Position numbers and translations under genes: made by a program. From Flavobacteriales bacterium BRH_c54 (GTDB lineage: Bacteria; Bacteroidota; Bacteroidia; Flavobacteriales_E; Vicingaceae), in contig LADZ01000019.1 of NCBI GenBank assembly GCA_000961845.1, positions 1-64,000 on the forward strand: DNA of 64,000 nt, read 5' to 3'. Positions 6,044 through 35,156 of this stretch are shown piece by piece (within the stretch, counting starts at the first letter, position 1; each line of letters opens with the position of its first letter). The notes under the pieces were generated by a model, which was not told where the DNA came from, made no database searches, and saw only the letters and a list, made by a program, of their open reading frames with translations.

Positions 6044-6162
6044 AAAAAGCTATTTAATAAAAAGTGTGCAAAATAACGTAATTTTTATCACTCTGTTAAG
6101 CTTTAAGTTCTGAGTTTAATTCTTCCGACTTCAGTCTTCCGTCTTCTAACTTTTAAGTACTC

Positions 6163-31214: not shown

Positions 31215-31886
31215 ATGAGTAAAGGATTCTCAACATCTTCAGTAGGAAGAAAAATTTTAATGGCCTTATCGGGTTTTTTCTTATTATTTTTTCTTCTACA
31301 ACATTTTGTAATCAACTTTCTATCAGTACTTAGTGCTGATGCTTTTAATGAGACATCTCATTTTATGGGTACTAACCCACTTATTCAATATATCCTTCAA
31401 CCCATACTTCTTTTTGGAGTTTTATTCCACTTAGGAATGGGCATTTACCTTGATTTACAAAACAAAAAAGCAAGACCTGTAAAGTACGCTATGAACAAAC
31501 CGGGAGAGAATGCCAGTTGGATGAGCAGAAACATGATTATTACAGGAATAATGATAATGTTGTTTTTAGGTTTACATTTTTACGATTTTTGGATTCCTGA
31601 AATTAAAGACAAGTTTATTGATGGTATTTGGGACAACCCTACAAAATACTATGAACATCTAGTTCATAAATTTGCAGACCCAGTTAGAGTAGGCATTTAT
31701 GTATTGGCTTTTGTTTTCTTAGCCTTGCACTTATTGCATGGTTTTCAATCAGCATTTCAATCAGTGGGTTTTAACCACAGAAAGTATACGCCTATCATTA
31801 AAAAATTAGGGACACTGTATGCCATCATTATCCCGTTAGGATTTATATTTATTGCAATTTTTCATTTTATCAATCACTCGCATTAA
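31215..31886 (+). CDS. sdhC: Succinate dehydrogenase cytochrome b subunit
   Basis: SdhC anchors the succinate dehydrogenase/fumarate reductase complex in the inner membrane and holds heme b groups. The 223-residue protein has five hydrophobic segments. The single-subunit anchor of the Bacteroidota/Bacillus type is expected because no sdhD lies nearby. His residues are placed in or next to membrane helices (QHFVINF, GLHFYDF, LALHLLHG, FNHRKY, IFHFINH), fitting two hemes. It opens the sdhC-sdhA-(insert)-sdhB order. Confidence 0.95.
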   Translation: MSKGFSTSSVGRKILMALSGFFLLFFLLQHFVINFLSVLSADAFNETSHFMGTNPLIQYILQPILLFGVLFHLGMGIYLDLQNKKARPVKYAMNKPGENASWMSRNMIITGIMIMLFLGLHFYDFWIPEIKDKFIDGIWDNPTKYYEHLVHKFADPVRVGIYVLAFVFLALHLLHGFQSAFQSVGFNHRKYTPIIKKLGTLYAIIIPLGFIFIAIFHFINHSH

Positions 31887-31898
31887 TCTATTTTAAGT

Positions 31899-33914
31899 AT
31901 GTCAAAATTAGATGCTAAAATACCTGAAGGTCCATTAAAAGATAAATGGACAAATTATAAAAACCACATCGATTTAGTTAACCCTGCTAACAAAAGAAAT
32001 ATAGATATTATTGTTGTTGGAACAGGATTAGCAGGAGGTTCTGCTGCTGCATCCTTAGCGGAAATGGGTTATAATGTAAAAGCTTTTTGTTATCAAGATT
32101 CGCCAAGAAGAGCGCACTCTATTGCTGCTCAAGGTGGTATAAATGCTGCCAAAAATTACCAAAATGATGGCGATTCTACTTACCGATTATTTTACGATAC
32201 GGTTAAAGGTGGAGATTACAGAGCAAGAGAAGCAAATGTTTATCGTTTAGCTGAAGTTTCTGCCAATATTATTGATCAATGTGTGGCTCAAGGAGTTCCT
32301 TTTGCAAGAGAATATGGCGGATTGTTAGACAACCGTTCTTTTGGTGGTGTATTGGTTTCCAGAACTTTTTATGCTAAAGGACAAACCGGGCAACAATTAT
32401 TGTTAGGAGCTTATTCGGCTATGAACCGCCAAATTGGTAAAGGAAAAATTAAAATGTATAACCGTCATGAAATGCTAGATTTAGTGCTGGTTGACGGAAA
32501 AGCAAGAGGAATTATTGCCAGAAACTTAGTTACAGGAGAAGTAGAAAGACATTCGGCACACGCAGTAGTTATTGCAAGTGGTGGTTACGGAAACGTATTC
32601 TTTTTATCTACCAACGCAATGGGTTCTAATGTTAGTGCTGCATGGAAAGTACACAAAAAAGGAGCTTTCTTCGCTAATCCATGTTATACTCAAATTCACC
32701 CAACATGTATTCCACGTTCGGGAGAATACCAATCTAAACTTACGTTGATGTCTGAGTCATTAAGAAATGATGGTAGAATTTGGGTGCCAAAGAAAATGGA
32801 AGATGTTAAAGCGATTAGAGAGAAGAAACTAAAACCTACTCAGATAAAAGAAGAAGACAGAGATTATTACTTGGAAAGAAGGTATCCTGCTTATGGAAAC
32901 TTAGTTCCTAGAGATGTCGCTTCTAGAGCTGCTAAAGAAAGATGTGATGCCGGTTATGGAGTTAATGCAACTGGTGAGGCTGTTTATTTAGATTTTTCAA
33001 CTGCTATTCAGCGTTATGGTAGAGAAAAAGCCAATATGTTAGGACTTGAAAATCCAACTGCAGAAAAAATTACTCAATTAGGAGAAGAGGTTATTGAAGC
33101 TAAATATGGTAACTTATTCCAAATGTATGAGAAAATTGTAGATGAAAATCCATACAAAACACCTATGATGATTTACCCAGCGGTACATTATACCATGGGA
33201 GGAATTTGGGTTGATTATAACTTAATGACTACTATTCCGGGATGTTATGCTGCCGGAGAAGCTAATTTCTCTGACCATGGAGCTAATCGATTAGGAGCTT
33301 CTGCATTAATGCAAGGATTAGCTGACGGTTATTTTGTATTGCCTTATACTATTGGAGATTATCTTTCTAATGAAATTAGAACAGGAAAAATACCTACCAA
33401 TTTACCTGAATTTGAAGCTGCTGAAAAAGAGGTGACAGAAAGATTAGAGAAGCTTATCAATAATAAAGGAACTAAGTCGGTAGATTATTTCCATAAAAAA
33501 TTAGGAAAAATAATGTGGGATTATGTAGGGATGGCAAGAAATGAAGCTGGTCTTAAAAAAGCAATGGACGAAATTGCTCAAATTAGAGAAGAATTTTGGA
33601 AAGATGTTTTTGTTCCTGGGAGTATAAATGAACTTAATCCTGAATTAGAAAAAGCCGGTAGAGTTGCTGATTTCTTAGAATTAGGAGAATTGTTTGCTGT
33701 TGATGCATTACACAGAAATGAATCATGTGGTGGACATTTTAGAGAGGAGTCTGTTGAAATGGATGGCGAACAAGAAGGTGAAGCTAAAAGAGATGATGTT
33801 AACTTTAAATATGTTGCTGCTTGGGAATATACAGGAAATCCAAGAGAAGCTGTGCTTCATAAAGAGGAGTTGACTTTTAATGATATTGAATTAAAACAAA
33901 GAAGCTACAAATAG
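31899..33914 (+). CDS. sdhA: Succinate dehydrogenase flavoprotein subunit
   Basis: SdhA oxidises succinate to fumarate at a covalently bound FAD on the cytosolic side of the inner membrane. The 671-residue protein has the FAD-binding motif [11 protein letters not shown] (residues 40-50). The covalent-flavin histidine is His73 in [14 protein letters not shown], and the later motifs are [10 protein letters not shown] and [20 protein letters not shown]. The long form with extra C-terminal sequence is typical of Bacteroidota. sdhB does not follow directly: an unrelated four-helix-bundle gene intervenes. The stop at 33914 is 37 bases before that gene. Confidence 0.97.
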
Positions 33915-33932
33915 TTAATGGTTATTAGTTAT

Positions 33933-33946
33933 TTGTTAATCGTTAA
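33933..33946. repeat. Left arm of a 14-bp inverted repeat bracketing the insert
   Basis: TTGTTAATCGTTAA here is the exact reverse complement of 34374-34387. Together they flank the four-helix-bundle gene that interrupts the sdh operon. Confidence 0.7.
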
Positions 33947-33951
33947 TTGAT

Positions 33952-34335
33952 TTGAAGGAGAATAAAATAAGAAGTTTTGAAGATTTAGAATGTTGGAAAG
34001 TTGGTACAGAGTTAAGAAGGTTTGTTTCTCAACTTGTTAAAACTTTCCCAAAAGAAGAGCAGTTCGACTTAACTTCGCAAATGAAAAGAGCTTCTAGGTC
34101 TGTAACACATAATATTGCTGAAGGATATGGTAGATTTCATTACCAAGAGAATATTCAGTTTTGCAGACAAGCAAGAGGATCGTTGTACGAACTTATTGAT
34201 CAATTTATAGTAGCATTTGATGAAAAATACATAACTAATGAAGAGCTAATAAAAGGAAAAGAGCAGATTAATAAATCATTAGCATTGTTAAATGGATATA
34301 TTAAATATTTAATGAAAGCTAAAAATGAAAATTAA
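33952..34335 (+). CDS. Four-helix-bundle protein (23S rRNA intervening-sequence type)
   Basis: The 127-residue protein belongs to the S23/four-helix-bundle family. Its pattern is FEDLECWKVGTELRRFVSQL, then FDLTSQMKRASRSVTHNIAEGYGR, then QFCRQARGSLYELIDQ, and a final helix with LALLNGYIKYL. Such genes occur inside 23S rRNA intervening sequences and in many Bacteroidota intergenic sites; their function is unknown. The start is TTG at 33952, because in-frame stop TAA lies at 33937. It sits between sdhA and sdhB and is bracketed by an inverted repeat. sdhB must be transcribed through it or from a promoter I cannot see. Confidence 0.9.
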   Translation: MKENKIRSFEDLECWKVGTELRRFVSQLVKTFPKEEQFDLTSQMKRASRSVTHNIAEGYGRFHYQENIQFCRQARGSLYELIDQFIVAFDEKYITNEELIKGKEQINKSLALLNGYIKYLMKAKNEN

Positions 34336-34373
34336 AATATAATTATTCGTTGAAAGTTTATCACTAATAACTT

Positions 34374-34387
34374 TTAACGATTAACAA
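34374..34387. repeat. Right arm of the 14-bp inverted repeat
   Basis: TTAACGATTAACAA mirrors 33933-33946. The second half of the same motif (TTAACAA) repeats immediately after it. Confidence 0.7.
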
Positions 34388-34403
34388 TTAACAAATACAT
34401 ATC

Positions 34404-35156
34404 ATGGATTTAACACTAAAAATATGGCGTCAGAAAGACGCAAAGTCTGAGGGAAAAATGGAAACATATCCCATTAAAAATATCTCAGAACATTCTTCAT
34501 TTTTAGAAATGTTGGATGTGTTAAACGAAAACTTAGTAAACGAAGGTAAAGAGCCAGTTGCATTCGATCACGATTGTAGAGAAGGAATTTGTGGTATGTG
34601 TTCTTTATACATTAATGGTGAAGCTCATGGTCCGGATAGAGGTGTAACCACATGCCAACTACACATGAGAATGTTTAAAGATGGAGATACTATTTACATT
34701 GAACCATTTCGTTCTAAAGCTTTCCCTGTAATAAAAGATTTAGTTGTTGATAGAGGTTCTTTTGATAGAATTCAACATGCAGGAGGTTTTATTTCTGTAA
34801 ATACTTCAGGAAATACACAAGATGCCAATGCGCTGCCAATTCCTAAACCGGATGCTGATAAAGCTATGGATGCTGCAACTTGTATAGGTTGTGGAGCTTG
34901 TGTAGCAACTTGTAAAAACTCATCAGCAATGCTGTTTGTTGCGGCAAAGGTTTCTCAGTACTCTTACCTTCCACAAGGACAAGTAGAAAGAAAAGAGCGT
35001 GTGTTAAACATGGTAGAACAAATGGATAAAGAAGGATTTGGAAACTGTACCAATACCGGAGCTTGCGAAGTAGAATGTCCAAAAGGTATCTCGTTGGAGT
35101 TTATTGCTCGTATGAACAGAGAATATTTTGGGGCTTCAATAGTTTCTGAAAAATAA
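34404..35156 (+). CDS. sdhB: Succinate dehydrogenase iron-sulfur subunit
   Basis: SdhB carries electrons from SdhA to the membrane anchor through three Fe-S clusters. The 250-residue protein has the [2Fe-2S] ligands in [16 protein letters not shown] with a later TTCQLH, the [13 protein letters not shown] set, and the [15 protein letters not shown] set for the [4Fe-4S] and [3Fe-4S] clusters. It follows the four-helix-bundle insert by 68 bp; no TAnnTTTG box is visible in that gap, so it is probably still read from the sdhC promoter. Confidence 0.97.

Follow-up and report, generated by a model that had tools for sequence, protein, structure and literature searches.

What is a gene for a small four-helix-bundle protein doing between sdhA and sdhB, and how did it come to lie inside an inverted repeat? 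The question is raised by the first 64,000 nucleotides of contig LADZ01000019.1 of Flavobacteriales bacterium BRH_c54, the whole of which was analyzed here and is referred to as the window. An earlier note had placed the gene within an sdhC/sdhA/sdhB operon and described a 14-bp repeat on either side of it. Its coordinates were all correct, sdhC, sdhA and sdhB flank the gene, and the repeat is real, being in fact part of longer heptamer arms. The features of the locus are the following.

31215 to 31886, + strand: sdhC, host operon
31899 to 33914 (stop codon 33912 to 33914), + strand: sdhA, host operon, upstream neighbor
33910 to 33947, + strand: left (5') arm, a lag-7 array of score 19 with its inverted partner at 34360 to 34397
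33912 to 34397, + strand: whole element, ~480 bases, extent as suggested by the arms
33952 to 34335, + strand: four-helix-bundle gene (23S rRNA IVP/S23 family; PF05635, TIGR02436), 127 aa, likely TTG start
34360 to 34397, + strand: right (3') arm, a lag-7 array of score 17, 92% complementary over 24 nt
34404 to 35156 (start at 34404), + strand: sdhB, host operon, downstream neighbor

The word TTGTTAATCGTTAA (33933-33946) recurs as its exact reverse complement at 34374-34387, and GTTATTAGT (33921-33929) has a mirrored copy at 34363-34371. The inverted repeat extends beyond 14 bp to 24 nt at 92% complementarity (33923-33946 and 34374-34397), the 14-bp repeat being the best stretch of two ~38-nt complementary heptamer arrays, 33910-33947 and 34360-34397. 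The left arm consists of the heptamers GTTAATG, GTTATTA, GTTATTT, GTTAATC and GTTAATT and includes the TAG stop codon of sdhA (33912-33914), while the right arm is built from the complement of these heptamers and ends 6 nt 5' of the sdhB start. The alignment score of this arm pair, 38, was reached in none of 1500 dinucleotide shuffles and at one of 800 equally spaced places in the window, the latter unscreened for the element itself. The inverted repeat is not due to chance. An Rfam search of the window gave no match. The gene lacks an initial ATG, reading AAG-GAG-AAT where ATG-GAT-AAT stands in the 97%-identical copy that a related genome (G005) carries at this junction. Because the ATG of that copy is replaced by AAG in the window, translation likely starts at a TTG just 5' of this stretch, or else the start is damaged.

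The product matches PF05635 (4.7e-31, 107.6 bits against a curated cut-off of 33.8) and TIGR02436 (4e-28, 97.8 bits against 24). Its AF2 model (pLDDT 96) is a four-helix bundle with 2gsc (Z 21.3, rmsd 0.9) and 2rld as the best fold matches, followed by Avd (4dwl); it resembles the XCC0516 structure and, more distantly, DGR Avd. Avd in DGR complexes aligns with the model at Z ~15 and 1.6-1.9 Å, with a sequence identity of 7-8%. Since a Z near 13 can arise by chance among helical bundles, the link to Avd leans also on the homology of Avd and PF05635 that was proposed earlier (PMC10053308). The protein is under strong purifying selection, with dN/dS of 0.02-0.18 in most orthologous pairs (the exceptions are two close L002 pairs, 0.37 and 0.71) and low values even where a site is occupied in several species, and it therefore matters. 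The PF05635 family is present in 157 of 198 Bacteroidota genomes, at up to 16 copies each.

The genome to which the window belongs holds ten family matches, and most of the full copies are bracketed by an inverted repeat whose sequence is specific to the copy and whose style is common to all, with units such as GAAGTTA/GAAGCTG, AACCTCA/AACATCA, AGTTTAT and AGAGAAA. The copy at the L008 site is armless. A literal end repeat shared between copies was rejected: the genome contains eight occurrences of TTAATCGTTAA, a number close to that for the reversed control, and two of these eight are at the sdh helix-bundle gene. The 14-bp repeat that the earlier note suggested might recur at other family members does not do so. 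Arm sequences differ between loci and are matched only within a locus; what the copies share is the kind of arm.

This kind of arm is widespread. With an inverted-repeat score of at least 26 taken as matched arms, 65% of 79 loci in the taxonomic family, which are partly non-independent as some are orthologous sites, had arms matching their own partner, compared with 5% when partners were swapped. The corresponding values were 47 and 3% for 30 phylum-wide loci. A set of 81 loci from public genomes, including Planctomycetota, Chloroflexota, Clostridia, SAR324, Acidobacteria, CPR, KSB1 and Verrucomicrobia, gave 64 versus 12% in Bacteroidota and 90 versus 7% at the 20 loci from other phyla. On eleven plasmids, ten cyanobacterial and one from Riemerella, matched arms surrounded 10 of 11 copies (91 versus 9%). 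Swapped partners scored at 3-12% over all sets, and 3.6% of 197 control ORFs had flanks reaching the threshold. In both flanks the dominant lag is 7 (or 14), a signal seen neither in shuffles nor in the coding core, and the matched arms are mostly heptameric, with 8-base units in some lineages. The arms are polar, the G-rich one being the 5' arm at 110 of 119 loci (110:9), and AG is present in 93 of 114 unit consensuses (62 expected). Units follow the same order in both arms, and at L106 an exact 24-mer of varied units is found. Arms of one locus fit each other better than they fit the arms of the closest protein relative (110 versus 55). The heptamer family follows the protein only above ~65% identity, and a permutation test for their coevolution across phyla was non-significant (248/1000).

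The idea that heptamers are a general intergenic feature was rejected: the 392 kb of G004 contig C6 contain three lag-7 arrays (score at least 14), no commoner than arrays of other lags. This scarcity ties the heptamers to helix-bundle genes, though gene-free arrays exist. One lone array (CTTCCGACTTCAGTCTTCCGTCTTCTAACTTTTAA) is found in the window at 6122-6156, between panC and an mscS-like gene and with no helix-bundle gene, and is possibly a relic arm. Phage records gave no match. In the open-access literature searched, we found no prior description of inverted heptamer arms around the IVP/S23 family. The matched inverted layout surrounds the PF05635 family in most bacteria examined.

The helix-bundle genes are typically co-directional with both neighbors (41 of 44 and 87 of 94, versus 161 of 263 control genes), which in turn are typically 430-510 nt apart around the gene, with a median gap of 460 nt. 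In most cases no more than ~10 nt separate the start of the 5' arm from the upstream stop codon, which the arm itself often supplies. Arms near stops would follow from short operon spacers alone, but the excess of upstream TAG stops would not (45 of 111 loci versus 99 of 500 controls, p 1e-5). The element sits in operons and in the direction of transcription, in agreement with the earlier suggestion that it tolerates operon transcription. Three cyanobacterial plasmid copies (L288, L290 and L294) are antisense to both neighbors, unlike almost all others; this outcome is not predicted by the mRNA-tolerance model and counts against the explanation that we favor below. Other cyanobacterial plasmid copies (L293, L295 and L296) occupy cas6/cas4 and cmr2/cmr3 junctions and are flanked by heptamer arrays at either end.

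Comparison of relatives, mostly as draft assemblies, revealed that the sdhA-sdhB junction is empty, filled or differently filled. G002, with a 100% identical sdhB, lacks the gene and has a 54-nt AT-rich spacer; G021, whose sdhB is 90% identical, has a 6-nt spacer, and spacers of 6-40 nt are found in most relatives. G004 (sdhB 98%) has a 37%-identical protein with GGCAATA arms, G005 (sdhB 85%) has the 97%-identical protein with GTTATTT arms, and G017 and the more distant G032 have yet other occupants, giving five different occupants across these junctions. The empty site in close relatives that the earlier note had asked for thus exists, and the gene is not carried by all relatives. The AT-rich spacers of G002 and G003 were considered as arms-only hairpins and rejected, as their DNA folds were weakly beyond shuffles (z -1.2 and -1.4). 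In G027 the junction (L036) contains 759 nt with a nucleotidyltransferase-like ORF and more, and heptamer arms are absent from it. The junction seems insertion-prone in general.

Empty and filled alleles of close relatives have flanks that are 93-97% identical. The window genome has 544 nt at the L001 site, compared with 15-28 nt in most relatives (nearest 93-95% identical); the insertion replaced ~15 nt of spacer, and its 3' arm provides a new in-frame ATG for the next gene. No target-site duplication, as anticipated in the earlier note, was found at L001, the one clean empty site, and the other sites are too altered to judge. At this site G000 has a helix-bundle element, whereas G003 has a 322-aa ORF with weak HARE-HTH similarity between AGTTTGA-type heptamer arms (L249:1169-2137), and such arms may be able to carry other cargo. 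A 270-aa ORF with no Pfam match also lies between AGTTTGA-type arms (L242:1403-2215). L262 of G000 is an arms-only hairpin (z -5.2), and the corresponding site of G002 contains a gene whose arms are different. At L010/L262 (G000 contig C56, ~10.7 kb) a truncated helix-bundle gene with ~45 aa of the domain was observed between AGTTTAT-type arms, relatives having only a short remnant.

The arms move together with the gene. Twenty-six pairs of genes that are 78-82% identical at the DNA level lie in unrelated neighborhoods and have the same heptamer family in nearly all cases, and the arms therefore travel with the gene. Synonymous divergence at sdh is 0.51 for the armed gene versus 1.05 and 1.20 for its neighbors, and the armed gene is well below its neighbors at most polymorphic sites, the exceptions being L006 and some L002 comparisons. 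The armless L008 copy, at a fixed site, has a synonymous divergence like that of its neighbors. Recombination between strains could partly cause the low values. No co-conversion tract was found at sdh, where identity peaks in the gene and falls at once in sdhA and sdhB. The proposal that this is a mobile element is borne out by its return to the same sites and by the empty, filled and differently filled junctions among relatives, and its mobility is well supported.

The arms close a fold in the mRNA (z -3.2). Selection on an RNA stem through G-U pairs is unsupported: arm mismatches comprise 34 of the sense G-U type and 59 of the antisense type, with no excess of sense-strand G-U pairs, and it is therefore not clear that pairing in the mRNA maintains the match between the arms. 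The arms showed no compensatory changes, and orthologous arms differ by one-sided gain or loss of units. From these sequence patterns, we infer that matching arises when a copy is formed and not by selection for RNA pairing.

The locus is, in our judgment, probably best explained as a transposase-less, IVS-like mobile element of ~400-550 bp that lives between operon genes and operates as proposed here. Its plan is a G-rich 5' arm, mostly of AG-N5 repeats, followed by the IVP/S23 Avd-like gene and a complementary 3' arm, and it is inserted between two co-directional genes, from the stop of the first to just before the start of the second. This anatomy recurs throughout the family and across phyla, with presence and absence in relatives, reoccupation of junctions and arms traveling with the gene. 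By analogy with its structural relative Avd, the protein may be a nucleic-acid-binding ring, predicted to recognize the arm hairpin of its own element as a DNA single strand or as RNA. Short operon spacers would be the targets to which it delivers the folded element, and the insertion would be finished there by enzymes of host replication or repair. As the new copy forms, the two arms would be equalized, one being copied from the other, and they would later drift as whole repeat units are gained or lost. Pairing of the arms in the operon mRNA, a step suggested by the fold and by analogy, would give a long stem that RNase III could excise as in the classical 23S rRNA IVS, and sdhB would thereby stay expressible. 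As the earlier note surmised, the element has no transposase of its own: PF05635 is its sole ORF, and no nuclease or recombinase gene is present in it. With PF00078 and Y1 also undetected in many carriers, host enzymes or an unrecognized trans-acting factor are left as the presumptive mover. We infer both the chemistry of movement and the mRNA excision.

Other explanations share parts of this evidence. The element could be MITE-like and moved in trans by a Y1 (HUH, RAYT/IS200-like) transposase that recognizes the arm hairpins, with the gene as an accessory. Hairpin ends, the absent target duplication and the arms-only copy at L262 of G000 (z -5.2) resemble REP/RAYT, and each of the six genomes in the genus contains 1-6 Y1 matches; however, PF01797 was undetected in 17 of 46 carrier genomes, some of which have nine copies and are >90% complete, each locus has an arm sequence of its own, in contrast to the conserved sequence of REP families, and the helix-bundle protein is itself under strong selection. 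We consider this unlikely. A retroelement, in which the Avd-like protein would work with a reverse transcriptase supplied in trans, would be in keeping with the fold match to Avd, and heptamer slippage and inverted copying would suit template switching. Yet 33 of the 46 carrier genomes, among them five of the six genus members, have no PF00078 match, which makes such an element very improbable; the window genome has one PF00078 match, on another contig.

It is also quite unlikely that the arms are kept for their RNA structure, as a cassette for mRNA processing (an RNase III site or a hairpin for stability) that benefits the operon, with turnover due to inter-strain recombination. The co-directional operon placement, the fold z of -3.2 and a dN/dS that is low even where several species have the site occupied would all fit such a cassette, but the mismatch types (34 sense G-U versus 59 antisense), the one-sided changes in orthologous arms, the different occupants of one junction in relatives 98-100% identical in sdhB, and the identity peak in the gene with its immediate drop in sdhA and sdhB speak against it. 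Least probable of all, and contradicted by the data, is the view that this is simply an accessory gene around which AT-rich repeats or terminators happen to lie. The genome is AT-rich and the L008-site copy is armless and vertically inherited, yet matched arms are found at most loci compared with 3.6% of control genes, polarity and lag 7 are strict, and relatives have empty sites.

Among known systems, the 23S rRNA IVS with an S23p ORF (Coxiella, Leptospira) have the same protein family, a size of ~430 nt and complementary, stem-forming borders. The Coxiella IVS is excised by RNase III and has tandem heptamers (GACAGAT) just upstream of its ORF in strain-variable copy number (PMC4990558), comparable to the lag-7 arrays at 33910-33947 and 34360-34397. 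The rRNA IVS sits in an rRNA gene, whereas the sdh element is located between protein-coding sdhA and sdhB, and the Coxiella S23p was judged probably not expressed (PMC4990558), in contrast to the strong purifying selection on the sdh protein. By location the sdh element is no rRNA IVS, but by structure it is the intergenic counterpart. DGR Avd (4dwl, 8ub7) shares the fold (Z ~15), but the sdh gene is not accompanied by an RT, a template repeat or a variable repeat, and its identity to Avd is 7-8%. REP/RAYT elements and MITEs are likewise short, hairpin-ended and intergenic, with arms-only copies and no target duplication seen. The arms described here differ in being locus-specific and heptad-periodic, each copy in the window genome having its own sequence and none being conserved, and the encoded protein is not of a nuclease family. 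TAACTGA heptanucleotide arrays, found a short distance upstream of start codons in Cyanobacteria, Bacteroidota and Beggiatoaceae, were described as direct repeats of one word (PMC4679880); their polarity is the same as that of the sdh right arm, and no link to an IVP gene was found in that paper. The IVP family is also listed among CRISPR-Cas-associated functions (PMC3936711), and the genes in those cas loci are of the same family as the plasmid copies between cas6/cas4 and cmr2/cmr3, where the arms suggest hitch-hiking elements. The TAACTGA arrays may represent arms, and the cas-operon IVP genes insertions, of this one class of element.

A broader, more tentative possibility is that heptamer-armed IVP elements form one ancient class of mobile DNA, spanning Bacteroidota, Cyanobacteria, Planctomycetota, Chloroflexota, CPR and others, that has no catalytic protein of its own and whose ends lack a conserved sequence and are rebuilt as a matched hairpin at each site; the rRNA IVS, the cas-operon IVP genes and the scattered heptamer arrays would be its forms or relics. 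The IVP/S23 family, with many copies per genome and no function known so far, has been linked case by case to rRNA fragmentation, CRISPR and retroelements. A single layout covering these cases offers an explanation for unexplained heptamer arrays, and is a warning that the presence of an IVP gene in cas or other operons should not be read as function. Ends that are matched within a copy yet different between copies are unlike ordinary transposon ends and call for a new copying mechanism, and the common layout gives the family a testable role in arm binding and the spread of the element.
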